Source: Bacillus sp. 522_BSPC (GTDB taxonomy: Bacteria > Bacillota > Bacilli > Bacillales > Cytobacillaceae). From it: a stretch of 54,200 bases of DNA. The position numbers and the translations under genes are program-made. The stretch is taken from the NCBI RefSeq assembly GCF_001076885.1, contig NZ_JVDT01000162.1, forward strand, positions 1-54,200. Reading direction: 5' to 3'. Each line of letters starts with the position of its first letter. The first letter of the stretch is position 1. Shown here piece after piece: positions 1,146-32,110 of this stretch. The notes beneath the pieces were generated by a model. The model made no database searches. It saw nothing but the letters and a program-made list of their open reading frames with translations, and was not told the origin of the DNA.

Positions 1146-4468
<3,323 letters not shown>

Positions 4469-4556
4469 TAATATAAGATAGGTAAGGAAATTTAATTACC
4501 ATTTGTATCCTATTGGTAAATTATTTTAAGTTTTTGTATAGTAATATCTCTATGTA

Positions 4557-4590
4557 GAAGGGTGTACCAAACTGGTACACCCTTCTTATC
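4557..4590 (+). terminator. Terminator of the bgl operon
   Basis: GAAGGGTGTACCA (4557-4569) and TGGTACACCCTTC (4573-4585) form a perfect 13-bp stem with an AAC loop. The T-tract after it is short (TTATC). Confidence 0.75.
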
Positions 4591-5331
4591 GATTCTACTA
4601 TTTAACTTTAAATAAGGATTAAAAATAATAGATTAATAATTTATACATATAGGAAATAGGTACAGAAGAAGGATCAATCTAAGAGGAATTTTTATTAGAC
4701 ATTCCTGTTATAGATTCCATATTATGATAAATAAATTAAAAAGCTTATGCCTATTTGTTGCCATTACGGAATTCACCTCAACTAGAATTGTTTTGTATCC
4801 TTATTAAAATATCCAAACATCATCAAAAAATACTTAATATTTTTTTCCCACTTGTCAAGAATTCATAACATGTAGAAAAGAAAGCGAATAGGTGATTACT
4901 AAATGGGGAGATATTCCGAAAAGATACGAGATTAATTGCTGTTAATTTTATAAATAGTAATAGAGAATAACATTTCAAGCTTCAATATAAATAAATGAAT
5001 TTGGTTGAGTATTGTAGTTGGAATTTTAAAAAAATTAAAAAAATAACATTTACAAGCAGTAAATAGAGGGTTATTATAACCCATATAAAGTTATGGTTTG
5101 TATAAAAAACAACAAGAATTAAAGACCTTCTAAATTAACATCTTGGATAAAACAGATAACAGAATATATTAGGTAATCGTTACGAATTGGTCAGAACCTG
5201 TATCTTTCCAGTTAATATGAAAAGGAATGTAACCAATAGTGAGGCTCATCAATAGAGTAATAGTTTTTAGACTATCTGTTTAAAACCATCAAATCAATAG
5301 CTAAATTTAAAACCGTATGGAGGAACTTATC
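4591..5331. other. 741-bp A+T-rich intergenic stretch without a recognisable gene
   Basis: I see no ORF with a ribosome binding site on either strand and no riboswitch I recognise. Two short dyads stand out: the perfect odd palindrome GGGTTATTATAACCC at 5068-5082 and GTAATCGTTAC at 5173-5183. Either could be an operator for the aminotransferase gene that follows. The second resembles an incomplete cre site. The stretch may also hold decayed sequence. Confidence 0.4.
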
Positions 5332-6528
5332 ATGTCTGTAGCTAACCGTTTAACCAATATTCCTTTTTCAAGTATTAGAGAAATTTTTGATGAAGCAAAT
5401 GCGATGCAAAAAAGTGGGATAAATATTACACATATGGAAATAGGAAGACCAGATTTTGATACCCCAATACATATTAAAGAAGCTGCAAATGCCGCATTGC
5501 AAGAGGGATTTGTTCATTATACAGCAAATAACGGTATTCAAGAATTAAGAGAAGCAATTGCAGTCAAGCTAAAAAGGGAAAATAAGATACATGTTGATCC
5601 TAATAAAGAAATAGTTGTTTCAGTTGGGTGTAAAGAAGCCATTGTCAGCATGATTCTTGCATTTATTAATCCTGGTGATGAAGTGTTGATCCCTGATCCT
5701 GCCTGGCTTGAATATCAATATATCGTCGAGCTTGCTGGAGGGGTATCCGTGTCGATTCCTTTACGGGAAGAGGAGGACTTTATACTTAATCCAGAGGATG
5801 TAAGAGCTAGGATAACAAGTAAAACGAAAATGATTCTTTTAAATTCTCCTCATAATCCAACAGGGGCAGTATTGCCAGAGGCTTATTTAAAAGAATTGGC
5901 TGACATTGCGATTAATCATAATCTATTAGTCTTATCCGATGAAATCTATGAAAAATTAATTTATGAAGATGCAGAACATATAAGCATTGCTACATTTCCA
6001 GGTATGTTTGAGCGGACAATTACGATAAACGGCTTTTCCAAGGCATATGCGATGGATGGCTGGAGATTAGGCTATGCAGCTGGTCCTGAAAAGCTGATGA
6101 AACCAATTATGAAAGTGCATCAATATAATACTTCTAGCGCTACTTCGTTTGCACAATATGGCGCGGTTGCTGCCTATTTGGGGACTCAGGAACCTGTTTT
6201 TAAAATGGTTCAAGAGTTTGATAAACGACGTCAATTATTAGTTAAAAGGTTACAGGAATTAGATTATGTTAGTTGTGTTGTTCCTAAAGGAGCCTTTTAT
6301 GTTTTCCCTTCTTTCAAGGGGATTGGCATGACGTCAAAGGAATTGGCGACCTTTCTTTTAAGAGAAGCACAGATTGCTTGTGTTCCTGGATCTGCGTTTG
6401 GAAACTATGGAGAGGGTTATCTCCGCATGGCCTATTCAACGGAGTATAAGCAAATCGATGAGGCAATGGATCGACTAGGAGAAGCGCTGGAAAAATTAAC
6501 AGTAAAAGGCAGTTATGTAGATCATTAG
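5332..6528 (+). CDS. PLP-dependent class I/II aminotransferase
   Basis: 398 residues from ATG 5332. The GGAGG at 5319-5323 lies 8 bases before it and overlaps the in-frame ATG at 5317, which is therefore unlikely to be used. Fold-type I features include LNSPHNPTGAVL, LSDEIYEKL and the PLP-Schiff-base lysine in GFSKAYAMDGWRLGY. A C-terminal arginine sits in GEGYLRMAYS (substrate carboxylate). It resembles the aspartate/aromatic/PatA group and would interconvert an amino acid and a 2-oxoacid. The next gene, 83 bp downstream, is a 2-hydroxyacid dehydrogenase, so the pair could convert an amino acid through a 2-oxoacid to a hydroxyacid. Substrate unknown. Confidence 0.88.
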   Translation: MSVANRLTNIPFSSIREIFDEANAMQKSGINITHMEIGRPDFDTPIHIKEAANAALQEGFVHYTANNGIQELREAIAVKLKRENKIHVDPNKEIVVSVGCKEAIVSMILAFINPGDEVLIPDPAWLEYQYIVELAGGVSVSIPLREEEDFILNPEDVRARITSKTKMILLNSPHNPTGAVLPEAYLKELADIAINHNLLVLSDEIYEKLIYEDAEHISIATFPGMFERTITINGFSKAYAMDGWRLGYAAGPEKLMKPIMKVHQYNTSSATSFAQYGAVAAYLGTQEPVFKMVQEFDKRRQLLVKRLQELDYVSCVVPKGAFYVFPSFKGIGMTSKELATFLLREAQIACVPGSAFGNYGEGYLRMAYSTEYKQIDEAMDRLGEALEKLTVKGSYVDH

Positions 6529-6611
6529 ATTTCGAAATGTGAAATTCAAATCATAAATTCAATCGCAATAACTACTAGGAGATACTATATGTTTATCTGG
6601 AGGTCAAAAAC

Positions 6612-7571
6612 TTGAAGCTTTTAATCATGTTAAGAGATGCTTTCTATGAAGCAAATCCTAAATTTATAGAAGATGCAAAGCAATTAGGTGAAGTGAAAAT
6701 ATTATATACCGATCATGGAATTGGGAAAGAGGAATTGAAAAAGGAAGTTAAAGATATAGATATTATTATTGTTGCAGTAGTGAAGATTGATAGCGAAGTA
6801 ATAGAAGCGGCCCCGAATTTAAAATACATTATAAAATATGGAGCAGGCTATGACAATATTGATGTCGATTATGCCTATGAAAAAGGAATATTAGTAACAA
6901 ATGCTCCTGGTGTAAATGCCCAATCAGCCGCTGATCTTGCGTTCGGTTTGATGTTATCAGCTGCAAGAAATATTCCTAAAAAAGATCAAGAGATAAAATC
7001 AGGACACTGGGAATTGTCAATGGGCAATGAAATTTATCAGAAGAAGCTAGGTATCATAGGCTTTGGGTCCATTGCGAAGGCAATCGCAAAACGTGCAATC
7101 GGGTTTGATATGGAAACAATAGTATACACGAATTATCCAGATCAAACGGTAGCTGACCCATTAAATATGACATTTGTAGATAAAGAAGAATTGTTTAAAA
7201 CGGCTGACTATCTTATTATTGCCACTTCTTTAAACGATAAAAATAGGCATTTGATTAATAGTGAAACATTAAGTTTAATGAAAGCAACTGCTTACATCAT
7301 CAATATATCTCGTGGTCCATTAGTGAACGAAATAGATTTAGTCAAGGCGCTAGAGGAGAAAAAAATTAAAGGTGCAGCATTAGACGTATTTGAGGTAGAG
7401 CCACCTATTAATGATTTACCGGGAAGAAAGGAGATTGTTGCGACCCCGCATATTGGAGGAGCCACCTTTGAATCTATAAAAAGAGTAGGTGACTTATCTA
7501 TTTCGAATATAAAGAAATTTGTTCGTAAGGAAGAGCTTGAATTTGTTGTGGTTCCGAAGCAAAAAACGTAA
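6612..7571 (+). CDS. D-2-hydroxyacid dehydrogenase (NAD-dependent, PGDH/GhrB-like)
   Basis: 319 residues from a TTG start at 6612, set by GGAGG 8 bases upstream. The Rossmann motif is GIIGFGSIAK. The catalytic Arg is in ISRGPLVNE, the Glu in FEVEPPI and the His in ATPHIGGATFES, giving the complete Arg-Glu-His set. The substrate domain has IIKYGAGYDNID. It would reduce a 2-oxoacid or oxidise a D-2-hydroxyacid. It lacks the ACT domain of long phosphoglycerate dehydrogenases. It is probably co-transcribed with the aminotransferase. A paralogue of the same family occurs at 21297. Confidence 0.88.
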   Translation: MKLLIMLRDAFYEANPKFIEDAKQLGEVKILYTDHGIGKEELKKEVKDIDIIIVAVVKIDSEVIEAAPNLKYIIKYGAGYDNIDVDYAYEKGILVTNAPGVNAQSAADLAFGLMLSAARNIPKKDQEIKSGHWELSMGNEIYQKKLGIIGFGSIAKAIAKRAIGFDMETIVYTNYPDQTVADPLNMTFVDKEELFKTADYLIIATSLNDKNRHLINSETLSLMKATAYIINISRGPLVNEIDLVKALEEKKIKGAALDVFEVEPPINDLPGRKEIVATPHIGGATFESIKRVGDLSISNIKKFVRKEELEFVVVPKQKT

Positions 7572-7595
7572 CTTTCTTTTATATGATTTTAAATC

Positions 7596-7637
7596 AGCCC
7601 CTCCATCTTAAGACGGAGGGCTATTTGTTATTTTTTT
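7596..7637 (+). terminator. Terminator after the aminotransferase/dehydrogenase pair
   Basis: AGCCCCTCC (from 7596) pairs with GGAGGGCT (to 7622) around TCTTAAGA, followed by a T-rich stretch with TTTTTTT at 7631-7637. It separates this pair from the convergent LysR gene. Confidence 0.75.
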
Positions 7638-7728
7638 ATAGAGTTTTATAAGCAAAGACGTAATGCAATTATGTTTGTGGTAGCTGCAAATCTTTCTCTA
7701 ATGTTGTTAGAGAACAAAGCAATAACTA

Positions 7729-8673
7729 TTATGATATATACATATTCTTCTGTCTATCCCTAGAGGATTTGATATATTCGGCTAATCTTTCTATTGGTAA
7801 ATTAGTACTTCTATTTTTAGCATAAACAATATGTATATATCTTGGTGGTGAATATTTTCCTAGATTGGTAATTTTGAAAGGAAGCATGTCATAAGAATCT
7901 GTTTTGTTGAAATTTCTTAATTGAACAAAATCTAAGATGAAGGATAAAGGGAGAAAACTATAACCTAGACCACTTGAAATCATGCTGATAAGTGCATAGG
8001 TATCATTTACTTCTTGAATATTTTCAGGAATTTCACCTAACATATTTAGTAGGATTTCATTTGCATCGTGTCTGAGTGGTAAAGATTTATTAAAAAGAAT
8101 AAAAGGTTTATTTACTAATTTTTTTTTATCTAATGGATTTGAATCACTTTTGGGACCAATTAAGACAATATCATCCTTATAAATAGGAATAAATTCAAGC
8201 TCTTCTTGTGGCTTACAATAACAAACAATTCCAAAATGTAATTCGCCAAATAAGACTAGATCCAATACTAAATCTGTTAATTCTGAAGTGATATTGCATT
8301 TTAGGTTTGGGTCAAATTCATTAATACTAGATAATATATCAGGCAAAAGGGAAGTAGCAAGTGGTCTCGTTATACCTATTTTTAGATTTTTATTTAAATT
8401 CGTAGAATGAAAAAAATCACCGTCTTGATCGAGTATATTTCCTGAATCAAACTCCCGAACCATCTTGAGAGCTTTCACTAAAAAGGAGGTTCCAGGTATG
8501 GTAAGCTCCACTCCTTTTTTACTTCTCTCAACTAGTTGGACCCCTACCTCAGTTTCTAATTTTTTTAATTTTGAAGTTAAAGCAGGCTGGGTGATATGAA
8601 GCATATGAGATGCTTTTGTAATGCTTTTTTCTCTAACAATAGTTATAAAAGAATCTAGCGAATTTAAATCCAA
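7729..8673 (-). CDS. LysR-family transcriptional regulator
   Basis: 314 residues. The N-terminal winged helix (LNSLDSFITIVREKSITKASHMLHITQPALTSKLKKLE, about residues 2-40) is typical LysR. An effector-binding domain follows (about 90-300). The start is TTG 8673, preceded by AGAGGTGA. The upstream ATG runs into a stop in another frame. It is transcribed divergently from the amidase gene at 8862 with a 188-bp gap containing a dyad, so it probably regulates the amidase/ABC operon. Such regulators usually respond to a pathway metabolite. A small inverted repeat (TTCTCTAA/TTAGAGAA, 7694-7714) lies past its end, without a clear T-tract. Confidence 0.88.
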   Translation of the reverse strand: MDLNSLDSFITIVREKSITKASHMLHITQPALTSKLKKLETEVGVQLVERSKKGVELTIPGTSFLVKALKMVREFDSGNILDQDGDFFHSTNLNKNLKIGITRPLATSLLPDILSSINEFDPNLKCNITSELTDLVLDLVLFGELHFGIVCYCKPQEELEFIPIYKDDIVLIGPKSDSNPLDKKKLVNKPFILFNKSLPLRHDANEILLNMLGEIPENIQEVNDTYALISMISSGLGYSFLPLSFILDFVQLRNFNKTDSYDMLPFKITNLGKYSPPRYIHIVYAKNRSTNLPIERLAEYIKSSRDRQKNMYIS

Positions 8674-22607: not shown

Positions 22608-22712
22608 TCATTCTGCAACAAAGGCAAACCAGTTGAAAAATTGGGACGCAAAGTTACAGACCTAAACGTGAGAATCACCATGGTGGCTGAGCTGCTGAAG
22701 GATGGAGAATGA
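22608..22712 (+). ncRNA. Cyclic-di-GMP-I (GEMM-I) riboswitch aptamer
   Basis: Core signatures occur in canonical order: GGCAAACC (22623-22630), a GAAA tetraloop in its hairpin, GGGACGCAAAG, then GACCTAAAC and finally ATGGTGGCTGAGCTGC in place of the consensus GGTAGCCGGGTTACC segment. Outer helix P1 forms from TCATTCT (22608-22614) and AGAATGA (22706-22712). This class binds c-di-GMP. It lies 133 nt before the WxL-type gene and 28 nt before a terminator-like hairpin, so it should switch transcription of the surface-protein gene. Ligand specificity (c-di-GMP versus cGAMP variants) is not settled here. Confidence 0.9.
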
Positions 22713-22739
22713 TACTCGTGTTATGAGTTGAAATTCAAG

Positions 22740-22780
22740 ATTCTTCCGATTCAAAAAATTTGTGTTGGAGGGATTTTTTT
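22740..22780 (+). terminator. Riboswitch expression platform: terminator with competing pairing
   Basis: ATTCTTCC (22740-22747) can pair with GGAGGGAT (22767-22774, two G-U pairs), followed by TTTTTT. The same ATTCTTCC can instead pair with GGAGAAT (22704-22710), the 3' strand of aptamer helix P1, with one bulge. Ligand binding would hold P1, free the terminator strand and turn the gene off. The OFF direction is my inference from pairing by eye. Confidence 0.55.
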
Positions 22781-22844
22781 AATGGATAAAAATAACGTGC
22801 TTATTTCAAATAAATTAAACAAACAGTCTAAAGGAGGAAATTCA

Positions 22845-23390
22845 ATGATTAAAAAATTATTTGCAACTGTTTCTACTTTAGCAATTATAGGTTCCGCATT
22901 GGTTGGTGGACAATCAGCATTTGCTGCTACAACAGCAATCGAAGGTGGTTCATTATCATTTGGTACTCAACCAAGTGTTGATAACTTTGGCTCTGTAACT
23001 CTTAATGGACAAGTTCAAAATAGTACTGCTGCTGTTAGTGCATTTACTGTAATTGACGCAACAGGAACCGGAGATGGATGGAACGTTGTGGTGAAAGCTG
23101 ATCAATTTACGGATTCAGCTAATGGATTAACATTACCAACCAATTCAATTGATATCGATCTTCCAACAGTGACTGCGGATACCGGAGCTAGTGAGTTAGC
23201 TACCATTTCTAAAGCAAGTGGTAAAATAGATAGTTCTACTGGTGTGAAAATTCTTTCTGCTGCTGAAGGCGGCGGCATGGGTACGTATAATGTAGATGCA
23301 AACAATTTAACGTTAACTCTTCAACCAAAAGATGTTAAAGCAGGAACATACACTTCAACAATTTCAGTAACTGTTACAACTGGACCATGA
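22845..23390 (+). CDS. Secreted WxL-domain-like surface protein
   Basis: 181 residues from ATG 22845, which has AAGGAGG 7 bases upstream; an in-frame reading extends further upstream but lacks that signal. Signal peptide MIKKLFATVSTLAIIGSALVG... cleaved after AFA (residue 27). The mature protein is small, Thr/Ser/Gly-rich and beta-strand-like, beginning GGSLSFGTQPSVDNFGSVTLNGQ and containing GDGWNVVV (Trp79) where WxL proteins have the first Trp-x-Leu motif. The second motif near the C-terminus has lost its Trp (NNLTLTLQP). WxL proteins attach to peptidoglycan. The partner-type gene DUF916/DUF3324 follows at 25465, and a c-di-GMP riboswitch precedes it. WxL call by pattern and context. Confidence 0.82.
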   Translation: MIKKLFATVSTLAIIGSALVGGQSAFAATTAIEGGSLSFGTQPSVDNFGSVTLNGQVQNSTAAVSAFTVIDATGTGDGWNVVVKADQFTDSANGLTLPTNSIDIDLPTVTADTGASELATISKASGKIDSSTGVKILSAAEGGGMGTYNVDANNLTLTLQPKDVKAGTYTSTISVTVTTGP

Positions 23391-23441: not shown

Positions 23442-25327
23442 GTGCGCCCGGCATGGGCTATAACTTGGTGGTGAAAGTCCACTACAGGCTTGGCAGTAGG
23501 AACTGTTAGCTAATGGCAAGGGTGTCCATCGTGAGGTGGAATCTGAAGGAAGCCGGAGGCAAAATCCCGAACTGACGGACAGAAACTATATATAAGGCTG
23601 AATTGGGATGGACGAGTTTGCACAACAAAACAAAGTCCAATACTGCACGAGTCCCATACAGTAAATATAGCAGTTACATGGGAGGAAGGTTATAGCTCTT
23701 ACCCGGGGAGGTCTTACAAGGGTTCCCGACAAGAGAGATGGAATATCTCACAGGAACAAGTTGGTCAGTGATGACAAACTGAATTGTAAGAAGTCAGCAG
23801 AAGCCATAGTAGTTCCTTTGGAATGAAGGGCTGAACAATAACAATCTTGAAGAAATGCGGAGGTGAAGACAGTGCAAAGACCACAGAATACATTGGAAAA
23901 TGGCTATTTGCAAAGAGATAAGTTGGAAACTGAAGAGTATGCAAAAGTGTGCAGTACTGTCCTTAAAGAAGCAAGACGACAAGATGGTATCGACTTAATT
24001 GACAGAATAATTGATGATAATAATCTACTTAGAGCATGTGAGAAGGTCAAGGCAAATAAAGGTGCACCCGGTATTGATGGGATGACAGTAAATGAACTTT
24101 TTGGTCATGTAAGTAAATACCACAAGCAATTGAAAAGAAAATTGAAGGATGGCACTTATAAACCTTTACCTGTTAAACGTGTTGAAATTCCCAAACCAGA
24201 TGGGTCTAAACGTAAGTTAGGCATTCCATGTGTAAGGGATCGTATGGTCCAACAAGCAATCTATCAAGTAATCGGTGGGATAATCGACCCTCATTTCTCA
24301 GAAATGAGCTATGGATTTAGACCCAACAGAAACCAACATCAAGCCATTGAGCAATCCATCAACTATTACGAACAAGGATATAAAGTGGTTGTAGACTGTG
24401 ACTTAAAGAGTTACTTCGACACCATAAATCACCAGAAGTTGATGGAATACCTAAAGGTATTTATACAAGACAATATAGTCCTAAAGCTAATTTGGAAATT
24501 TCTTAAGAGTGGAATCCTTGAAAATGGACTAACAAAATCAACGGATTCTGGTGCTCCTCAAGGCGGCGTTCTTTCGCCAATATTGAGTAACGTCTACTTA
24601 AATCAACTAGATAAGGAATTAGAGAAACGTGGACACAAGTTTGTGCGCTTTGCGGATGACTTCTGCGTTTATGTTAAAAGCAATCGAGCTGGGCAACGGG
24701 TACTAGAAAGTATCTCTAACTTTCTAGAGAAAGATTTGAAACTGACGGTTAACAGCACTAAGAGCCAAATTGGAAGTCCAACAAAATTGAAATTTCTAGG
24801 TTTTTGCATACACTCTACTTCTAAAGGTGTTAGTTGTAGACCGCACCAGGCAGCCAAAAAGAGATTTAAAGTTAAATTAAAATCCCTAACCAGACGAAAT
24901 CGCCCAGGTAAGTTTGAGGAAATAGCCAAAGCAATTAACCAAGCGACTGTTGGTTGGATAAATTACTATGGGATTAGCTTGATGAAGAGGTTTATTAAAG
25001 ATATTGCACAATGGTTGAATCATCGATTAAGACAGATTATATGGAAAAGATGGAAAAAGGTCAAAACACGTTATGCGCAACTAAGGAGATTAGGCATCAA
25101 ACATGAAGAGGCTTTGAAAGTAGCTAATACCCGAAAGGGTTATTGGAGGATGTCGGGCTGTGAAACGCTTCATACGGCAATTAAAATAAAGACGCTCATT
25201 AAATGGGGTCTAAAAGACCTTAACCATTTATATGAACGTCGATACTTAAGTTATTGAACCGCCGTATACGGGACCGTATGTACGGTGGTGTGAGAGGTCG
25301 GGAGTTAATCACTCCCTCCTACTCGAT
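23442..25327 (+). mobile_element. Group IIC (bacterial class C) intron with reverse transcriptase
   Basis: The 5' end GTGCGCCCGGCATGGGC and the structured stretch to about 23870 are typical of group II domain I-III. The 3' end holds domain V (GAACCGCCGTATACG ... CGTATGTACGGTGG, about 25255-25290) and domain VI with CCTCCTACTCGATT. The ORF sits in domain IV and its stop codon overlaps the start of domain V. About 1.9 kb. Class C is indicated by the compact RNA, the ORF without an HNH endonuclease and the insertion directly after a terminator hairpin. Ends are good to a few bases only. The element looks intact. Confidence 0.9.
23872..25257 (+). CDS. ltrA: Group II intron reverse transcriptase/maturase
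   Basis: 461 residues from GTG 23872, set by GGAGG 8 bases upstream. RT blocks are visible: NKGAPGIDGMTV (RT1), RVEIPKPDGSKRKLGIPCVRDRMVQQA (RT2-2a), YGFRPNRNQHQAI, VVDCDLKSYFDTINH (RT3), GAPQGGVLSPILSNVYLN (RT4) and the active-site FADDFCVYV (RT5). A thumb/X maturase domain with INQATVGWINYYG and a C-terminal GYWRMSG...LIKWGLKDL segment follows. No HNH endonuclease domain, as in class C. It assists splicing and reverse-transcribes the intron into DNA, probably priming at replication forks. Confidence 0.93.
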   Translation: MQRPQNTLENGYLQRDKLETEEYAKVCSTVLKEARRQDGIDLIDRIIDDNNLLRACEKVKANKGAPGIDGMTVNELFGHVSKYHKQLKRKLKDGTYKPLPVKRVEIPKPDGSKRKLGIPCVRDRMVQQAIYQVIGGIIDPHFSEMSYGFRPNRNQHQAIEQSINYYEQGYKVVVDCDLKSYFDTINHQKLMEYLKVFIQDNIVLKLIWKFLKSGILENGLTKSTDSGAPQGGVLSPILSNVYLNQLDKELEKRGHKFVRFADDFCVYVKSNRAGQRVLESISNFLEKDLKLTVNSTKSQIGSPTKLKFLGFCIHSTSKGVSCRPHQAAKKRFKVKLKSLTRRNRPGKFEEIAKAINQATVGWINYYGISLMKRFIKDIAQWLNHRLRQIIWKRWKKVKTRYAQLRRLGIKHEEALKVANTRKGYWRMSGCETLHTAIKIKTLIKWGLKDLNHLYERRYLSY

Positions 25328-25464: not shown

Positions 25465-26484
25465 ATGAAAGTGTTTCGTATTTTATTTTTAATACTCATA
25501 TTTGGAAAGGCATCTCCATTAGTTAGTATATATGTGAAGGCAGAGGAAGCTAGCGTTCCTTTAACCATTGAGCCAATCTATCCAGAAAATCAAAATCTTC
25601 AAACAAAAGGGTACTTTGATTTGTCTGTAAATTCGAGCGAAGTACAAACACTTCAAGTGCGCATTACCAACAATGAGGACAAAGAGGTAACGATAAGTAT
25701 TAAGCCAGCAAATGCTTATACTAATCCAAATGGTGGAATGCTCTATGAGGATGAGCTATACTCTACCGATACCGTTCTTTTGGAGGATGCTGTTCGATTG
25801 GCTGAATTTATTAAAGTAGAAGAGACTGTAAAGGTACCTCCATCAACATCTGTGGAGGTACCCATTGAGTTAACAGTTCCAGAATTAGATGGAAAGCATA
25901 TTTTAGGGGGTATTCTTTTTACAATGCAAGGAGAGGAAACGGAAACACAACAAGAAGCGGAAGAAGGTACTGCGAATTTTATTTTGAAAACAGAGACCGT
26001 CTATGCCATTGCACTTCAACTAAATATACCAAATGAAGTGCCTGATAACTTCCAATTTGGAGAAGCAGGTTTTAGTGGCGAAACTGGTTTTGTGTTTATG
26101 GAAATGAGCAACGATGCAAAAAAAATACAAGAAAAAATAGCAGGTACTTATTCGGTTTCAGATAAGGATGGAAACGAGTTGTTTAAAGGGGAATATGGAC
26201 CTTTTAAAATGGCCCCTAAGACAAAAATAAGATATCCAATCCAATGGAATGATGAAACACTTGAAGATGGCGACTATACATTAAATATAAAAGGGAAAGT
26301 TGATGGGAAAGAGGTATCCACAGCTAAACCCTTTACCATTAATAACAAAGATGTAACGGAATATGTAGAGAAAACACAAGCTACTCAAGTGAAAGTAGAT
26401 AATGGCATTCCAATATGGGTTTGGATAATTGGAGCGGTATTATTTGGTTTAGTAATGTTTTTGATTGGAAAAAGAAGAAAGTAG
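25465..26484 (+). CDS. WxL-interacting membrane protein (DUF916 + DUF3324)
   Basis: 339 residues. Signal peptide (about 1-25), then DUF916-type beta-sandwich (about 30-155, TIEPIYPENQNLQTKGYFDLSV, LDGKHILGGILF) and DUF3324-type region (about 165-290). A C-terminal membrane span VWIIGAVLFGLVMFLIG with KRRK stop-transfer follows. In Firmicutes this architecture binds WxL proteins and peptidoglycan at the cell surface. The WxL-like gene lies 2 kb upstream; without the intron the two genes would be about 190 bp apart. GGGAGG precedes ATG 25465. Whether read-through from the riboswitch reaches it is unknown. Confidence 0.88.
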   Translation: MKVFRILFLILIFGKASPLVSIYVKAEEASVPLTIEPIYPENQNLQTKGYFDLSVNSSEVQTLQVRITNNEDKEVTISIKPANAYTNPNGGMLYEDELYSTDTVLLEDAVRLAEFIKVEETVKVPPSTSVEVPIELTVPELDGKHILGGILFTMQGEETETQQEAEEGTANFILKTETVYAIALQLNIPNEVPDNFQFGEAGFSGETGFVFMEMSNDAKKIQEKIAGTYSVSDKDGNELFKGEYGPFKMAPKTKIRYPIQWNDETLEDGDYTLNIKGKVDGKEVSTAKPFTINNKDVTEYVEKTQATQVKVDNGIPIWVWIIGAVLFGLVMFLIGKRRK

Positions 26485-27384: not shown

Positions 27385-27756
27385 CTATATACTTTCCTCT
27401 ATCTTTTTCGTATACCGTGAAATTTTTACATCAATTCCTTTTAGGGATTCCTCCATTAACGATATCTCAGCGACTACATCTTGTTTGTGATTTTCCATCA
27501 TTGCAAGTCGTAGCTGAATGGTGCTGTCTCCTTCTATAATCCAATCAATATACTGTTTAATCTTTTTTATAGGCATATGCGTATTCTTTAAACAGATAAC
27601 TGTTCCGAGGAGTTCCATTTGATTTTCGGAAAATAACCGCCTTCCAGCTTCATCACGTTCTATTAATGGAAGCAGTCCTTGCTTTTCATAATATCTTATC
27701 GTTGATTCAGGAATATTAAATTTAGCTGATGCATCACTGATATGACAATATTTCAT
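27385..27756 (-). CDS. MerR-family transcriptional regulator
   Basis: 123 residues from ATG 27756. An in-frame ATG six codons upstream overlaps its GGAGG and is unlikely. The N-terminal winged helix (YCHISDASAKFNIPESTIRYYEKQGLL, then RDEAGRRLFSENQMELL) is typical, followed by a long dimerisation helix (about 80-118). No cysteine cluster for metals. The lone Cys residues suggest an organic or redox signal. It probably controls its own promoter at 27788-27818 and hence the SDR gene downstream. Confidence 0.88.
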   Translation of the reverse strand: MKYCHISDASAKFNIPESTIRYYEKQGLLPLIERDEAGRRLFSENQMELLGTVICLKNTHMPIKKIKQYIDWIIEGDSTIQLRLAMMENHKQDVVAEISLMEESLKGIDVKISRYTKKIEESI

Positions 27757-27787
27757 TCGGAGACCTCCATTCATTGTCGACAGAATT

Positions 27788-27818
27788 AGTATACGACTTA
27801 AACTACGGTTTAAGTCAA
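27788..27818 (-). promoter_or_regulatory. MerR-type promoter with 19-bp spacer and operator dyad
   Basis: On the minus strand TTGACT (27818-27813) and TATACT (27793-27788) are 19 bp apart. Between them lies the perfect dyad ACTTAAAC-N4-GTTTAAGT (27796-27815). An over-long spacer carrying a dyad is the hallmark of MerR-activated promoters. Confidence 0.85.
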
Positions 27819-27848
27819 GTAGTCAAATGAGGGGGCTCGTAAAATCAA

Positions 27849-27877
27849 TAAAAAAAGAGCAAATTATTGCCCTTTCT
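27849..27877 (-). terminator. Terminator of the radical-SAM peptide operon
   Basis: On the minus strand AGGGCAA pairs with TTGCTCT (one G-U), then TTTTTTATTG. It ends the operon that starts at 31146. Confidence 0.65.
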
Positions 27878-27923
27878 CTTTTTCCTTCATTAATTAAATA
27901 TTTGTTTCTGATTTTCTTCCTAA

Positions 27924-29582
27924 TCATGCTAAGAAATGCACATAGGAATGTGGTCTGTGCATAAGTTGTTCGAAAGAGCCGAATTCTACTATATTCCCGT
28001 CTATCAAAACAATAATTTCGTCATAAACAGATAAGTTTTCTTTTTCCAAATGATGAGAAACAGATACAACCGTTAATTCTTTATCATATAAGATTATTTG
28101 TTCAATTTCTTTTGCTGTTTCCCTATCTAAAGAGGATGTCGCTTCATCCATAAGGAGGATTTCACGATTTCTTAAAAAGGCTCGAGCTATTTCGATACGC
28201 TGTCTCTGTCCACCAGATAAATTCTTTCCATCTTCTCCAACATTATAATCTAACCCTTTATCAAAAATTACTTCAGATAGTCCAGCCCGATAACAAGCAT
28301 TCATAATATCTGCTTCACTGTAATTCTCTCCAAGTAGTATATTATTTCGAAACGTATCATCAAATAAGAACGGCTTTTGATTAATCATGGATACTGTCTT
28401 ATAAAAAGAAATGGCATCAACATCTAGAAAGTTAACACCATCAAGTTTTATCGTACCTTGATAATTTTGAATTCTCTTTTGCAGAATTTTTAATAAGGTG
28501 CTTTTTCCCGAACCTGAAGGACCAGTAATAAGAATTTTTTTCCCTTTTTTTATTTCAAGGTTTAAATCAGAAAGAATCATTTTATCTCCTATTTTGTAGG
28601 TAAGACTCTCGCATGTTAATGAATCTTTAAAAGGGATTGCTTGATGATTAGTAGGTTTATCGGGTGTATTTGTTATGAATTTTTGTATTCTATCGCGAAT
28701 TTTTTTTGTAGTTAATATCTTATTATACTCCTCCAATGAATCAAGTGCTGGAGCAATGACAGTATTAGAAAGCTGAATAATGGCAAGAACTGTTCCAATC
28801 GTGATCTCTCCCCTAGTGGCGAGAATTATTCCATATATATTAACAAAGAAAAAGCCACAAATCCCAAAAAAACCAACAATATTATCTGAGAGTATACGCC
28901 AATTGTTTAATGTCGCAAAACTTCTTTCCACGGTAGAATTGTAGGTTAAATGATCTTCAATCATTCGCTTTTCCATACCGTAGCCTCGAATAATATCTAT
29001 ACCTGTAAAAGCATCCTTCACTTTCCCAGTATAGATTTCACTTTTATTTGTCCAGTCTTCTGTTTGGTCAACGATTCTTTTTTTTAATAATTGTGGGACT
29101 AAACTAGGAATGATAAATACTACTATTAATAGAATAGCCATCGTACTATTAAGAAAAAAAATAGCGCTAATCGAGATTAAAAATATAATTAGGTTTAGGA
29201 TAATTTTTAATAGGGCGTCATAATAGTTAGTTTGAACCAATTTTAAATCGTTTAATAAAAAGGAAACATAGGATGAGGTATTCTTTTCTTGAAGTAAATC
29301 ATCTGAATGAATAAACACTTTGAAAATCCTTTGTTTTAAAGCTGTAATATTCATATAAACTATCTGATGGACAGTAAAGTAATATAATGTTTGACTAATC
29401 ATAATCAAAAAATAACCGCTAATGGAAAAGATGATTAACTTTACAAGAGGAAGTTTATTCGCCGCTTCAAAATAATCGAAAACTTCTTTAAAAACAAAGG
29501 CTTTAAAGGTATTTTCAAATGCAGCCAATGGTAGTAGAAGGATAAATATGATTATCCATTTTTTATTTATATTTTTTAACAA
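27924..29582 (-). CDS. ABC exporter (membrane domain fused to ATPase), peptide-cassette exporter
   Basis: 552 residues from TTG 29582, which has GGAAGG 8 bases upstream. A GTG three codons earlier sits directly against that site. The N-terminal half (about 1-290) has about six spans of ABC exporter type; the C-terminal half has Walker A GPSGSGKST, signature LSGGQRQR, Walker B ILLMDEATSSLD and H-loop VSVSHH. No C39 peptidase domain precedes the spans, so it would not trim a double-glycine leader. It lies 65 bp after the radical SAM gene on the same strand and probably exports the modified peptide made from the 31081-31146 gene, possibly also giving self-protection. Confidence 0.9.
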   Translation of the reverse strand: MLKNINKKWIIIFILLLPLAAFENTFKAFVFKEVFDYFEAANKLPLVKLIIFSISGYFLIMISQTLYYFTVHQIVYMNITALKQRIFKVFIHSDDLLQEKNTSSYVSFLLNDLKLVQTNYYDALLKIILNLIIFLISISAIFFLNSTMAILLIVVFIIPSLVPQLLKKRIVDQTEDWTNKSEIYTGKVKDAFTGIDIIRGYGMEKRMIEDHLTYNSTVERSFATLNNWRILSDNIVGFFGICGFFFVNIYGIILATRGEITIGTVLAIIQLSNTVIAPALDSLEEYNKILTTKKIRDRIQKFITNTPDKPTNHQAIPFKDSLTCESLTYKIGDKMILSDLNLEIKKGKKILITGPSGSGKSTLLKILQKRIQNYQGTIKLDGVNFLDVDAISFYKTVSMINQKPFLFDDTFRNNILLGENYSEADIMNACYRAGLSEVIFDKGLDYNVGEDGKNLSGGQRQRIEIARAFLRNREILLMDEATSSLDRETAKEIEQIILYDKELTVVSVSHHLEKENLSVYDEIIVLIDGNIVEFGSFEQLMHRPHSYVHFLA

Positions 29583-29646
29583 TTGAGTCACCTTCCTATA
29601 AGTTTGCTTCTCTTTAAAATGAATTTTTATGTTAAGGAAAATTAAA

Positions 29647-30942
29647 TTAAATAATATTATGAATTCTATCTAATTTAGAAACGATATCATCTATTCTATC
29701 GTGGTGTTTTGCAATTAAATCGAATACCATTTTTGTTTCTTGCCTTTTGCTTTTACAACGAATCTCTTGATATGGATTTTCATCAACTCTTTTACATAAG
29801 ATACATCTAAAGCGAGCGATACATATCTCACACTCTTTTCGTTCTTTCGTTTTGGAATGAAAGATTTGAGGATAACTCATTATTTTTTTCCAGACATAAC
29901 TTAAATCTTCGTTAACTATATTGGTGATTTTTTCAGAAGTATTAACAAATAAATGACATGGCCAAATATTTCCATTTGGGTCGATAGATAGTAACTCCAA
30001 ACCAGCTTCACAAAAGTGGAACCAATCTATTTCTTTCGAAAAGAAATAAGATAATATATCAGCTGTGCTAGTTCTCATAAAATAAGATTGTTCATATAGA
30101 AATTCTTCAAAGTCTTCTTCAATTTCTTTTTTACTTATATTATAAACATTATTAGATGTTCCTACTTCCCATACATCATTAACTGCTATATTCGATATAC
30201 CAAAATCACTATAGATTTTTTGAGCAATTTCTTTTTTTGAATAAAGCTTATTAGTAGAAGGAGTATAAGTTGCTTGAATGGAAAGAATTTTATTAGGATT
30301 TTTCATTTGGATTTGTTTTACATTCTTTAGTATTCTTTCATATGTTGGATTGTTTTTAATGTCTCTTCTATGCTTATCATGAATTTCTTTTGGTCCATCT
30401 ATACTTACAGTAATTTTAAAATTATACTTTAAGATTAAATTCATAATGGTTGGATTTAATAAATTTGTTCCATTAGTCTGCATCATAAAAGTTAGATGAG
30501 GATATTTTTCACAGAAATACTTAATCATCTTAGAATTAAGAGTCGGTTCTCCTCCAAAAAAAGTAATAGTTTTAATACTGGTAGCATAGTTGTCTATCAA
30601 TTCTGTTACTCGTTCTGCAATTACTTCCTTCATAAATAATCTATTATCACCATAATCCCCCTGTCCAGCATAACAATATGAGCATCTCAAATTACAGCCA
30701 TGCGAAACATTAAGCTTAATATTATCAATGATAGGAGTGAATTTATCAAACGTACTGTTCACAGGAACCCTTTGTTGAATATATTTTTCAATGTCAGGTA
30801 AAAGTTTCAAAGAGTCACCTTTATAGAGTTTAATGAAACCACTATAAAATTCTTCGTTTAATTCAAATATATCAAAAGTTAATAGATCGAAAAGTATGTG
30901 ATTTTCTTCACTAATATAAATGCTATATTCTGGAATAAACAT
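29647..30942 (-). CDS. Radical SAM/SPASM peptide maturase
   Basis: 431 residues. The radical SAM cluster motif is Cys83-x3-Cys87-x2-Cys90 in HGCNLRCSYCYAGQGDYG. The TIM-barrel core includes FFGGEPTLN (SAM-binding GGE) and VSIDGPKEIHD. A C-terminal SPASM/twitch-type region has cysteines in HFCEAG, WPCHLF and the group CEICIARFRCILC...RCKS, able to hold auxiliary FeS clusters. An N-terminal about 70-residue region precedes the cluster and may recognise a peptide leader. Start ATG has AAAGGAGGAA. Upstream on the same strand is a 21-codon peptide gene with two Cys, so I infer post-translational modification of that peptide, perhaps thioether formation. It is not obviously a sulfatase-maturing enzyme, as no sulfatase is nearby. 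Confidence 0.9.
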   Translation of the reverse strand: MFIPEYSIYISEENHILFDLLTFDIFELNEEFYSGFIKLYKGDSLKLLPDIEKYIQQRVPVNSTFDKFTPIIDNIKLNVSHGCNLRCSYCYAGQGDYGDNRLFMKEVIAERVTELIDNYATSIKTITFFGGEPTLNSKMIKYFCEKYPHLTFMMQTNGTNLLNPTIMNLILKYNFKITVSIDGPKEIHDKHRRDIKNNPTYERILKNVKQIQMKNPNKILSIQATYTPSTNKLYSKKEIAQKIYSDFGISNIAVNDVWEVGTSNNVYNISKKEIEEDFEEFLYEQSYFMRTSTADILSYFFSKEIDWFHFCEAGLELLSIDPNGNIWPCHLFVNTSEKITNIVNEDLSYVWKKIMSYPQIFHSKTKERKECEICIARFRCILCKRVDENPYQEIRCKSKRQETKMVFDLIAKHHDRIDDIVSKLDRIHNII

Positions 30943-31024
30943 TAAATATTTCCTCCTTTAAAAAATCGAGATAATAAGTAATTTAGATTAAGTGTGAATC
31001 ATTTATGTAAATCAGATGAAAAGT

Positions 31025-31066
31025 AAAATTCCCTCACTGTTTCTAAGATATTTGTGAGGGAATTTT
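31025..31066 (-). terminator. Hairpin attenuator between precursor-peptide gene and maturase gene
   Basis: A perfect 13-bp stem, AAAATTCCCTCAC (31025-31037) with GTGAGGGAATTTT (31054-31066), and a 16-nt loop. On the minus strand it lies 14 bp past the peptide stop codon and ends in AATTTTACTTTTC. Such partial terminators let peptide genes be expressed above the enzymes that process them. Confidence 0.8.
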
Positions 31067-31080
31067 AAAAATGATTAAAC

Positions 31081-31146
31081 TTAACCGCAATTAATTCCAA
31101 TACAATTTTTTGAACGAGTAGGTATATCAAAGTTTTTTTTCTTCAT
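31081..31146 (-). CDS. Short RiPP precursor peptide (21 residues)
   Basis: A 21-codon gene read 31146 to 31081. It has a textbook ribosome binding site AAAGGAGGAA with 9-base spacing to ATG. The product begins MKKK and is Lys/Arg-rich for the first 13 residues, with DIPTR at 7-11. It ends in the octapeptide NCIGINCG, a pseudo-repeat with two Asn-Cys pairs (Cys15 and Cys20). It has no signal peptide, double-glycine motif or transmembrane stretch. It is followed by a strong hairpin, then a radical SAM/SPASM gene and an ABC exporter on the same strand. This is the layout of a radical-SAM RiPP or modified signalling peptide. I do not recognise the core as belonging to a named family. Confidence 0.82.
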   Translation of the reverse strand: MKKKNFDIPTRSKNCIGINCG

Positions 31147-31357
31147 TTCGAATTTCCTCCTTTCTTGTATATTAATGTAAATTTAGTACAATTAGAAAAA
31201 AAAGTAAATAATATAATGAGAATATTCATAAGATATACACAAAATAAATTATTTTGAATTTTTATTAGAAGGTGGGAATCTAACAATTACTCATCAAACT
31301 TTCAAATCCCTAACCATCCCTACAAAAATATGTTACGATCATCCTGAGGTGGGAAAC
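31147..31357. other. Divergent promoter region between peptide cassette and RpiR gene
   Basis: A 211-bp A+T-rich stretch. For the peptide cassette a weak minus-strand promoter can be drawn (TTTACT, 17 bp, TAAATT), not compelling. No dyad typical of a quorum-sensing regulator was found, and no regulator gene is present in the cassette. Confidence 0.35.
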
Positions 31358-32110
31358 TTGGAACAATTGATTTATACTTTATTAGCTTACATAAATAATT
31401 CTTTAGAAAAAGATATCAATTATTCTATAGCCAATAGTTTTCTTGAAAATATCCATGATATTGAAGGCTATTCTTTAGAGGTGGCTGCGGAAAGATGTAA
31501 TGTTGCCCCTTCTACCATAAATTGTTTTTGTAAGCGAATAGGGTTTCGCAATTTTTCTAATCTGCGAAACAGTGTTGCTTTTCAAGGTAGAATGTATGAG
31601 GAGAGAGAAAAACAGTTGAATGCAGATTTATTTGAATCAAAGCTAAAGGAAAATGTGGAGATCATTGAACGTATCCCGAAGGAACAACTAGAACGGATTA
31701 TAAAAAAAATTCATGAATCTAAAAGGATTGTTATTTTAGGCTTTGAAAAACATCAAATTCAGGCGATGGAGCTTCAAAAACAATTATTTCTTCTTGGAAA
31801 GCTATGTGAATGCAATACAAATTTCTTTAAACAACTGGAGACATTAGAACATTTAACAAAGGAGGACATGATTATTACGATTTCTATCCAAGGGAATATC
31901 CTCATAGAAGAGTTGTCTATAAATGATAAAATAAAGGCAGCGAACGGAAAGAAATTATTAATTACATTTTCGGATTCAGAGCGACATAAGCGCGAATTTG
32001 ATGAGGTCTTACACTGTGGGAATATCGAAAATAGTGAAGTTAGTAGTTACACGCTATTACGGTTATTTGATGTCCTTGTTTATCAATATCAAAAGCAGTA
32101 TCCTTCTTAG
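31358..32110 (+). CDS. RpiR/MurR-family transcriptional regulator with SIS domain
   Basis: 250 residues from TTG 31358, with GAGG 8 bases upstream. An in-frame GTG at 31349 overlaps that site. The N-terminal RpiR helix-turn-helix (about 1-75) has EVAAERCNVAPSTINCFCKRIGFRNFSNLRNSV. The SIS domain (about 105-235), RIVILGFEKHQIQAMELQKQLFLL, would bind a phosphosugar. It sits directly before a GH1 phospho-beta-glucosidase gene, which it likely regulates in response to a phosphorylated sugar. Confidence 0.88.
   Translation: MEQLIYTLLAYINNSLEKDINYSIANSFLENIHDIEGYSLEVAAERCNVAPSTINCFCKRIGFRNFSNLRNSVAFQGRMYEEREKQLNADLFESKLKENVEIIERIPKEQLERIIKKIHESKRIVILGFEKHQIQAMELQKQLFLLGKLCECNTNFFKQLETLEHLTKEDMIITISIQGNILIEELSINDKIKAANGKKLLITFSDSERHKREFDEVLHCGNIENSEVSSYTLLRLFDVLVYQYQKQYPS

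Follow-up and report, generated by a model that had tools for sequence, protein, structure and literature searches.

Genes and features of the cassette

The stretch of DNA analysed here, called the window, comprises 54,200 nucleotides (contig NZ_JVDT01000162.1, assembly GCF_001076885.1) from Bacillus sp. 522_BSPC, whose genome is counted below among those of Niallia. On its minus strand lies a compact cassette encoding a 21-residue peptide, a radical S-adenosylmethionine (SAM) enzyme with a SPASM domain, and an ATP-binding cassette (ABC) exporter. We think it likely that this cassette represents a small family of ribosomally synthesized and post-translationally modified peptides (RiPPs), in which the radical SAM enzyme would modify the short peptide, its two cysteines probably acquiring one or two thioether rings, before export.

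The precursor gene (31081-31146) consists of 21 codons and encodes MKKKNFDIPTRSKNCIGINCG. A ribosome binding site, AAGGAGG, can be read upstream of it (31162-31156), and farther upstream there is a candidate sigma-A-type promoter, TTTACT-17-TAAATT (31208-31180). By eye, this candidate aligns with TTTACT-17-TATATT in Niallia circulans (locus L009) and TTTACA-17-TATCAT in an order-level relative (L014), and it is absent from the sites returned by a promoter consensus scan. The gap between the precursor and the enzyme gene contains a hairpin (31066-31025) with a perfect 13-bp inverted repeat as its arms (31066-31054 and 31037-31025; z -4.6, with 0 of 500 shuffles as low). The radical SAM enzyme, or maturase, has 431 residues (29647-30942) and matches the Pfam families Radical_SAM (72.5 bits) and SPASM (24.7 bits, cut-off 21.5). 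The exporter (27924-29591; 555 residues as listed, with an alternative TTG start at 29582) carries ABC_membrane at residues 13-281 and ABC_tran at residues 340-486, and there is no peptidase family among the 25 listed of its 45 Pfam matches.

A preliminary description, made from the window alone, had placed these parts correctly, including the strong ribosome binding site, the 13-bp hairpin and the common minus strand. Its radical SAM protein with a CxxxCxxC motif and SPASM-type cysteines is borne out by C83, C87 and C90 and by the Pfam SPASM score, and its exporter without a peptidase domain by the Pfam matches. Its closing terminator fares less well: a terminator-like stem does exist (27879-27850), and is the sole one in 27700-31400, but shuffled sequences average 1.5 such stems, so that the stem alone is not above chance. 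A comparable stem can be read at the same position of the cassette in N. circulans. Four neighbouring proteins were also scanned, of the MerR, RpiR, SDR and GH1 types.

Conservation of the precursor and the hairpin

An exact-octamer scan, which detects close relatives only (six octamers, one genome per species, 84,980 species), found one relative, N. circulans NBRC 13626, which encodes MKKKNFEIPTRSKNCNGINCG at the matching position and has a 91% identical exporter. Relatives were also sought in even, overlapping draws of 397-398 genomes, with four to five candidates scored per genome; because of this overlap and the few candidates, figures for rarity are approximate. The order sample (397 genomes) gave one locus beyond the window's own, L014, with a 61% identical maturase, a 58% identical exporter and the precursor MKRKEFEIPTRSMRCGGFNCG. 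In the class sample (398 genomes) only the window's own genome was found at E 1e-45, and the phylum sample (398 genomes) contributed one further genome, whose order, represented by 24 genomes, yields five carriers in all. In these five deep relatives the maturase is 30-35% identical over the aligned pieces and the exporter 32-33%, and each has a tiny open reading frame (ORF) upstream, encoding MSKITFSSVSPMDWCFGLGGCGVVKIN, MSKITFSSVSPMHWCFGLAGCGVKIS, MRKINFDPIVNPAFCGFAKICGVEIK and, in two loci, MRKINFDPIVNPAFCGLAKICGVEIK. For the last three deep loci, the start was chosen among in-frame GTG and ATG codons as the one that gives a cysteine at position 15.

With the starts so chosen, all seven distinct peptides have Phe6, Cys15 and the pattern C-x(0-1)-G-[LIF]-x(1-3)-C-G; a stricter pattern that includes Lys3 fits seven of the eight loci, L014 having Arg3. 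The core motif occurs in 8/8 loci of this clade, in 0/30 control maturase loci and in 3/20,000 random 300-mers, figures that measure specificity and not independent prediction, since the motif was derived from the clade itself. There is also an excess of synonymous change: between the window and the order-level relative, 9.75 of 11.5 synonymous sites differ, compared with 15.25 of 51.5 non-synonymous sites (0.85 versus 0.30, uncorrected). Between the window and N. circulans the figures are 2 of 11.5 and 2 of 51.5. The preliminary description had named in advance a lack of conservation of the short ORF beside orthologous SAM genes as a refutation; the ORF is present at all eight loci. One could still argue that an ORF of such length, in a stretch that holds other, unrelated small ORFs, arose by chance and that the true substrate is encoded elsewhere, but the recurrence of a related small ORF at the corresponding position of every clade locus and the synonymous excess within the 21 codons already contradict this idea, which we regard as hardly credible. 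As judged from the sequence comparisons, the 21-codon gene is real.

The peptide appears to be divided into leader-like residues 1-14 and a core that starts at Cys15. The core had been described as a duplicated Asn-Cys unit, an arrangement confined to the two Niallia peptides; all members of the clade have in common just Cys15, the Gly-hydrophobic pair and Cys-Gly. The overall picture of a compact radical SAM RiPP cassette, in which a tiny precursor is paired with an exporter that lacks a peptidase domain, stands, but its NC...NC core does not. No NCBIfam model matched any of four precursors scanned, nor did any Pfam family match that of the window. The precursor pattern has no match in viral contigs, and the window's 21-mer has none in plasmids; in phages, its two matches, both of them entries for a single Erwinia phage (E 9), were taken as chance.

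A hairpin follows the precursor stop codon in all eight clade loci (z -4.0 to -7.5; at no locus did any of 500 shuffles reach so low a value), and its sequence differs between distant members. We considered it as a distinctive mark of the clade and rejected this, since stems also follow the precursor in both PapA-type loci tested (z -5.1 and -4.7) and in several of the seven SCIFF loci examined (z -0.8 to -2.8; the PapA and SCIFF values are from Markov-generated and not from exact dinucleotide shuffles), which makes the hairpin an ordinary feature. It is probably a partial terminator or RNA stabilizer, a brake that would keep the precursor above the enzyme.

The cassette as an islet, and its distribution

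In a congener, G010, the flanking MerR-type gene (96% identical to that of the window) and RpiR-type gene (90%) lie only 144 bp apart. The two genomes are similar at the DNA level up to window position 27822 and again from 31311 onward, and G010 has 49 bp in the gap; the window-specific stretch is therefore 27823-31310, which holds the cassette together with its candidate promoter and terminator. The cassette is thus a 3.5-kb presence/absence islet in Niallia, and by itself this comparison may reflect either a gain in the lineage of the window or a loss in G010. The N. circulans cassette lies between the same two genes. There, the MerR-type gene is broken (L009 9191-9527; G002:C13:37426-37777), while it is open in the window and in G010.

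Carriers amount to 2/13 Niallia genomes and 2/193 genomes of the family, the window's genome being included in both counts. A third, weak match in Niallia (G001) proved to be a SCIFF-type locus. In this genome, DNA on the RpiR side and on the SDR side matches the window and the intervening MerR stretch does not, and so the site varies. In L014, three near-identical ORFs that look transposase-like from their sequence, and a run of N, lie beside the cassette (3679-8036), with further such ORFs on its other side. In another locus of the clade, L026, a 444-residue ORF on the opposite strand sits between maturase and exporter.

Mobile elements gave no close match. The window's maturase matched 166 plasmid and 40 phage records, and the G1013 maturase 75 plasmid records, all below 60% identity; of 120 stretches in viral contigs that matched the three-row profile A1, none was confirmed; and within 5 kb of a plasmid ABC match in Lactobacillus helveticus no SAM gene is annotated. 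A small-ORF search, which left out the P. sordellii and Thermococcus loci, found no matching ORF in L034 or L037. Plasmid matches in Anaerococcus and Paraclostridium bifermentans were set aside as having different Cys-rich precursor-like ORFs, and one in Acetoanaerobium as having a SCIFF-type ORF. On the P. bifermentans plasmid CP124692.1 (L055/L057), the related maturase is accompanied by genes for an ABC protein, a response regulator and a histidine kinase, as well as by an unannotated 38-residue precursor-like ORF with the core CGGWDGNCIFCDGG, a different variant beside a two-component system. On the Anaerococcus prevotii plasmid (L059 2491-2643), a 50-residue Cys/Asp-rich protein annotated as hypothetical resembles a PapA-type precursor and directly precedes a maturase whose place in the tree is among the PapA-type enzymes.

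The maturase

The maturase has two traits of radical SAM/SPASM RiPP systems, a CX3CX2C motif with seven SPASM cysteines and a co-conserved short precursor gene. The ten Fe-S cysteines, those of the core (C83, C87 and C90) and of the SPASM region (C311, C329, C371, C374, C380, C383 and C396), are invariant in an alignment of 29 rows. Of 83 NCBIfam families that match the enzyme, none of the 25 listed reaches its cut-off; the best is PapB (NF047865; 169.5 bits, cut-off 340), and the SCIFF maturase model TIGR03974 (131.3 bits, cut-off 425) and GggB (NF050038; 95.2 bits, cut-off 650) also fall short. Of three clade enzymes scanned, none reaches an NCBIfam maturase cut-off among the 25 models listed for each. 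When genomes were searched with the PapB profile, the window's enzyme scored 170.9 bits, and 2/398 genomes, the window's not among them, passed the cut-off.

The nearest solved protein by profile is 5wgg (E 7.8e-48). In a comparison of folds, in which the rmsd (root-mean-square deviation) values are large and the model is of low confidence (mean pLDDT, the predicted local distance difference test, of 62.5), 5why and 5wgg come first, followed by anSME and SuiB, in agreement with the profile search. The title of these two entries, which we take to be those of CteB, mentions thioether bond formation in sactipeptides. Residues 8-56 of the model form three strands and then two helices, the arrangement that a leader-binding domain should have, with pLDDT means of 66-91 over ten-residue blocks.

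In a tree of 25 maturases, six of the eight clade enzymes (a near copy, and the maturase of L024, which is split by a stop codon although precursor and exporter are still open, were left out) form one group with support 100/99; seven SCIFF enzymes (100/100) and three PapA-type enzymes (98/94) fall outside it. Relations among these groups are weakly supported (31/66). The enzyme of L114, where no precursor was found, joins the clade at 85/88; it is long-branched, and its placement may be false. With a profile built from six clade rows, four members score at least 655 bits and the two fragments of the broken enzyme 410 and 216 bits, as against at most 204 bits for other maturases, the precursors of only a minority of which were looked up. 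As other SPASM maturases also score, this profile matches all 37 genomes searched.

Comparison with known systems

PapA/PapB (freyrasin) is the best profile match, and shares with the cassette the order of a precursor, a hairpin (in both PapA-type loci) and a SPASM maturase. However, PapA has six C-x3-D motifs where the peptides described here have two cysteines, the score to PapB is 169.5 of 340 bits, and the enzymes form separate clades. The window's peptide has no Asp or Glu after Cys15, and so lacks the C-x3-D/E motifs of the PapB type.

The SCIFF/CteB system, with ranthipeptides of the thermocellin type, offers the nearest solved structure, by profile as well as by fold, and CteB has an arrangement of RiPP recognition element (RRE), SAM and SPASM domains to which the window's maturase may be likened. 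Yet the SCIFF enzymes form a clade of their own, to whose model the window's enzyme scores 131.3 of 425 bits, and, according to excerpts of PMC8172795 (all papers are cited here from excerpts), SCIFF precursors have six cysteines in 45 residues, compared with two in 21 residues here.

The streptococcal radical SAM RiPPs (RaS-RiPPs), which the preliminary description had invoked as a parallel, include streptosactin (GggABC), with a short precursor, a SPASM maturase and a GggC gene, the product of which is an export ABC transporter in NCBIfam and a protease in PMC8172795. Since the cassette has no Rgg gene next to it and the score to GggB is far below the cut-off, we retain this parallel only as an analogy; there is likewise no SHP gene beside the cassette, the core is unlike the GGG type, and the exporter gives 174.9 bits to the GggC streptosactin exporter model (cut-off 750). 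Finally, the NxxC system (NxxcA/NxxcB) resembles the window in that Asn and Cys occur in the core and thioether chemistry is possible, but the window's peptide has no NxxC motif and its Asn is not conserved in the clade. Radical SAM/SPASM RiPPs are a well-known kind, and this small family appears to be new: we found no description of the precursor/maturase family in the literature searched, which was mostly available as abstracts.

Chemistry of the predicted product

In the reading that we favour, residues 1-14, with the invariant Phe6, would be the leader to which the maturase binds through its N-terminal domain, and the enzyme would abstract a hydrogen from a residue near Cys15, Cys20 or both and tie the sulfur to the resulting carbon. 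The product would have one or two small thioether rings and a mass lower by 2 or 4 Da. The hairpin would allow the output of the precursor to exceed that of the enzyme, and the ABC protein would export the product after or along with trimming by a protease coded elsewhere, and might double as immunity protein. A thioether at one or both cysteines is the most likely modification because both cysteines are present in all seven peptides and because the best-matching enzymes make thioethers, thioether chemistry being described for PapB and for the maturation of CteA (PMC9413430, PMC8172795).

The partner of the sulfur is where the alternatives arise. PapB links Cys with the acidic residue of C-x3-D/E, Asp or Glu, and accepts a minimal substrate with other spacings (PMC9413430), and NxxcB joins Cys to the beta-carbon of an upstream Asn (PMC13361665, PMC8326336). 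Given these precedents, the rank of PapB as best-scoring named family and the retention of Asn19 in the three close peptides, one might propose a beta-thioether to Asn, either between Cys15 and Asn19 (C-x3-N, the C-x3-D spacing of PapB) or from Cys20 to a nearby upstream Asn as in NxxcB. We consider this improbable: the four distinct deep peptides have G, A, K and K at position 19, the L013 peptide does not retain Asn14, and PapB itself rejects an Asp-to-Asn change (PMC8172795). Across the seven distinct peptides, position 14 reads N, N, R, W, W, F and F, and the residue preceding the second cysteine is N, N, N, G, G, I and I; because both positions vary, Asn is unlikely as a general acceptor. 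A fixed side-chain acceptor such as Asn for the whole clade is thus unlikely, and members could use different acceptors.

A somewhat stronger competitor, which we nevertheless hold to be the less probable course, is a sactipeptide-type link to an alpha-carbon, the acceptor being Gly17, Gly21 or the hydrophobic residue. Apart from Cys, all eight loci agree in the core only at Gly and [LIF], and there are models for such bonds in streptosactin, where the links are to the alpha-carbons of Ser and Gly (PMC8172795), and in QMP, with small sactionine rings that have one intervening residue (PMC13361665). On the other hand, the best matches by profile and fold are PapB and 5wgg/5why, which act on ranthipeptides, and the Gly may be kept for turn geometry only. 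We offer tentatively, and as a rather doubtful extension, the proposal that a ranthipeptide-like clade acting on precursors of 21-27 residues with two cysteines, the first always at residue 15, makes a backbone- or Gly-directed thioether bicycle, given the lack of a conserved acceptor side chain, a ring layout that would be unreported, and that it is carried in Niallia on the 3.5-kb islet and shared with other Bacillota.

Several observations weigh against the thioether RiPP interpretation as a whole. No acceptor is conserved beyond the cysteines, the Gly and the hydrophobic position, so that the bond cannot be read from the sequence. An RRE leader-binding domain is only suggested by the model of residues 8-56, with no PqqD-type (RRE) family among the five Pfam families listed for the maturase. 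The stop codon in the L024 maturase implies that the system is dispensable there, and the cassette comes without a peptidase, a regulator or a dedicated immunity gene. As to the removal of the leader, a gene downstream of the exporter in L016, presumably encoding an S9-type peptidase, was considered as leader protease and not taken as such because it is absent from the seven other loci. For streptide, excerpts of PMC13361665 state that processing during secretion is unknown.

Other features of the window

Elsewhere in the window, on the plus strand, a c-di-GMP-I-GGC riboswitch (22614-22700, 65.7 bits) lies just upstream of a WxL surface-protein gene (22728-23390), which suggests control of the WxL locus by cyclic di-GMP. 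A group II intron (23525-25327), also on the plus strand and with a reverse transcriptase/maturase ORF (23863-25257), sits between this gene and a gene for a WxL-interacting protein (25465-26484).

Function and significance

The product is probably a secreted, bacteriocin-like competition peptide. That the islet is rare and has an exporter but lacks a regulator makes such a peptide likelier than a housekeeping or signalling factor, and the sparse, islet-like distribution fits an accessory competition trait. A signalling peptide that is not antimicrobial, released from a cassette that itself senses nothing, would agree with the lack of an immunity gene and has a counterpart in the SCIFF ranthipeptides, cited as quorum-sensing agents (title of Chen et al. 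2020, as cited in PMC8326336). However, the islet lacks a receptor and a regulator, and its presence/absence distribution is sparse, so that we look on signalling as possible but the weaker proposal.

For the family, the signature of F6, C15 and C-x(0-1)-G-[LIF]-x(1-3)-C-G serves to find further precursors, which may be too short for gene callers to report. As a minimal RiPP system with one enzyme, one exporter and a 21-residue substrate, the cassette lends itself readily to synthesis and co-expression, and a comparison of its maturase with those of the PapB and CteB systems would show what determines the choice of acceptor in SPASM enzymes that form thioethers.

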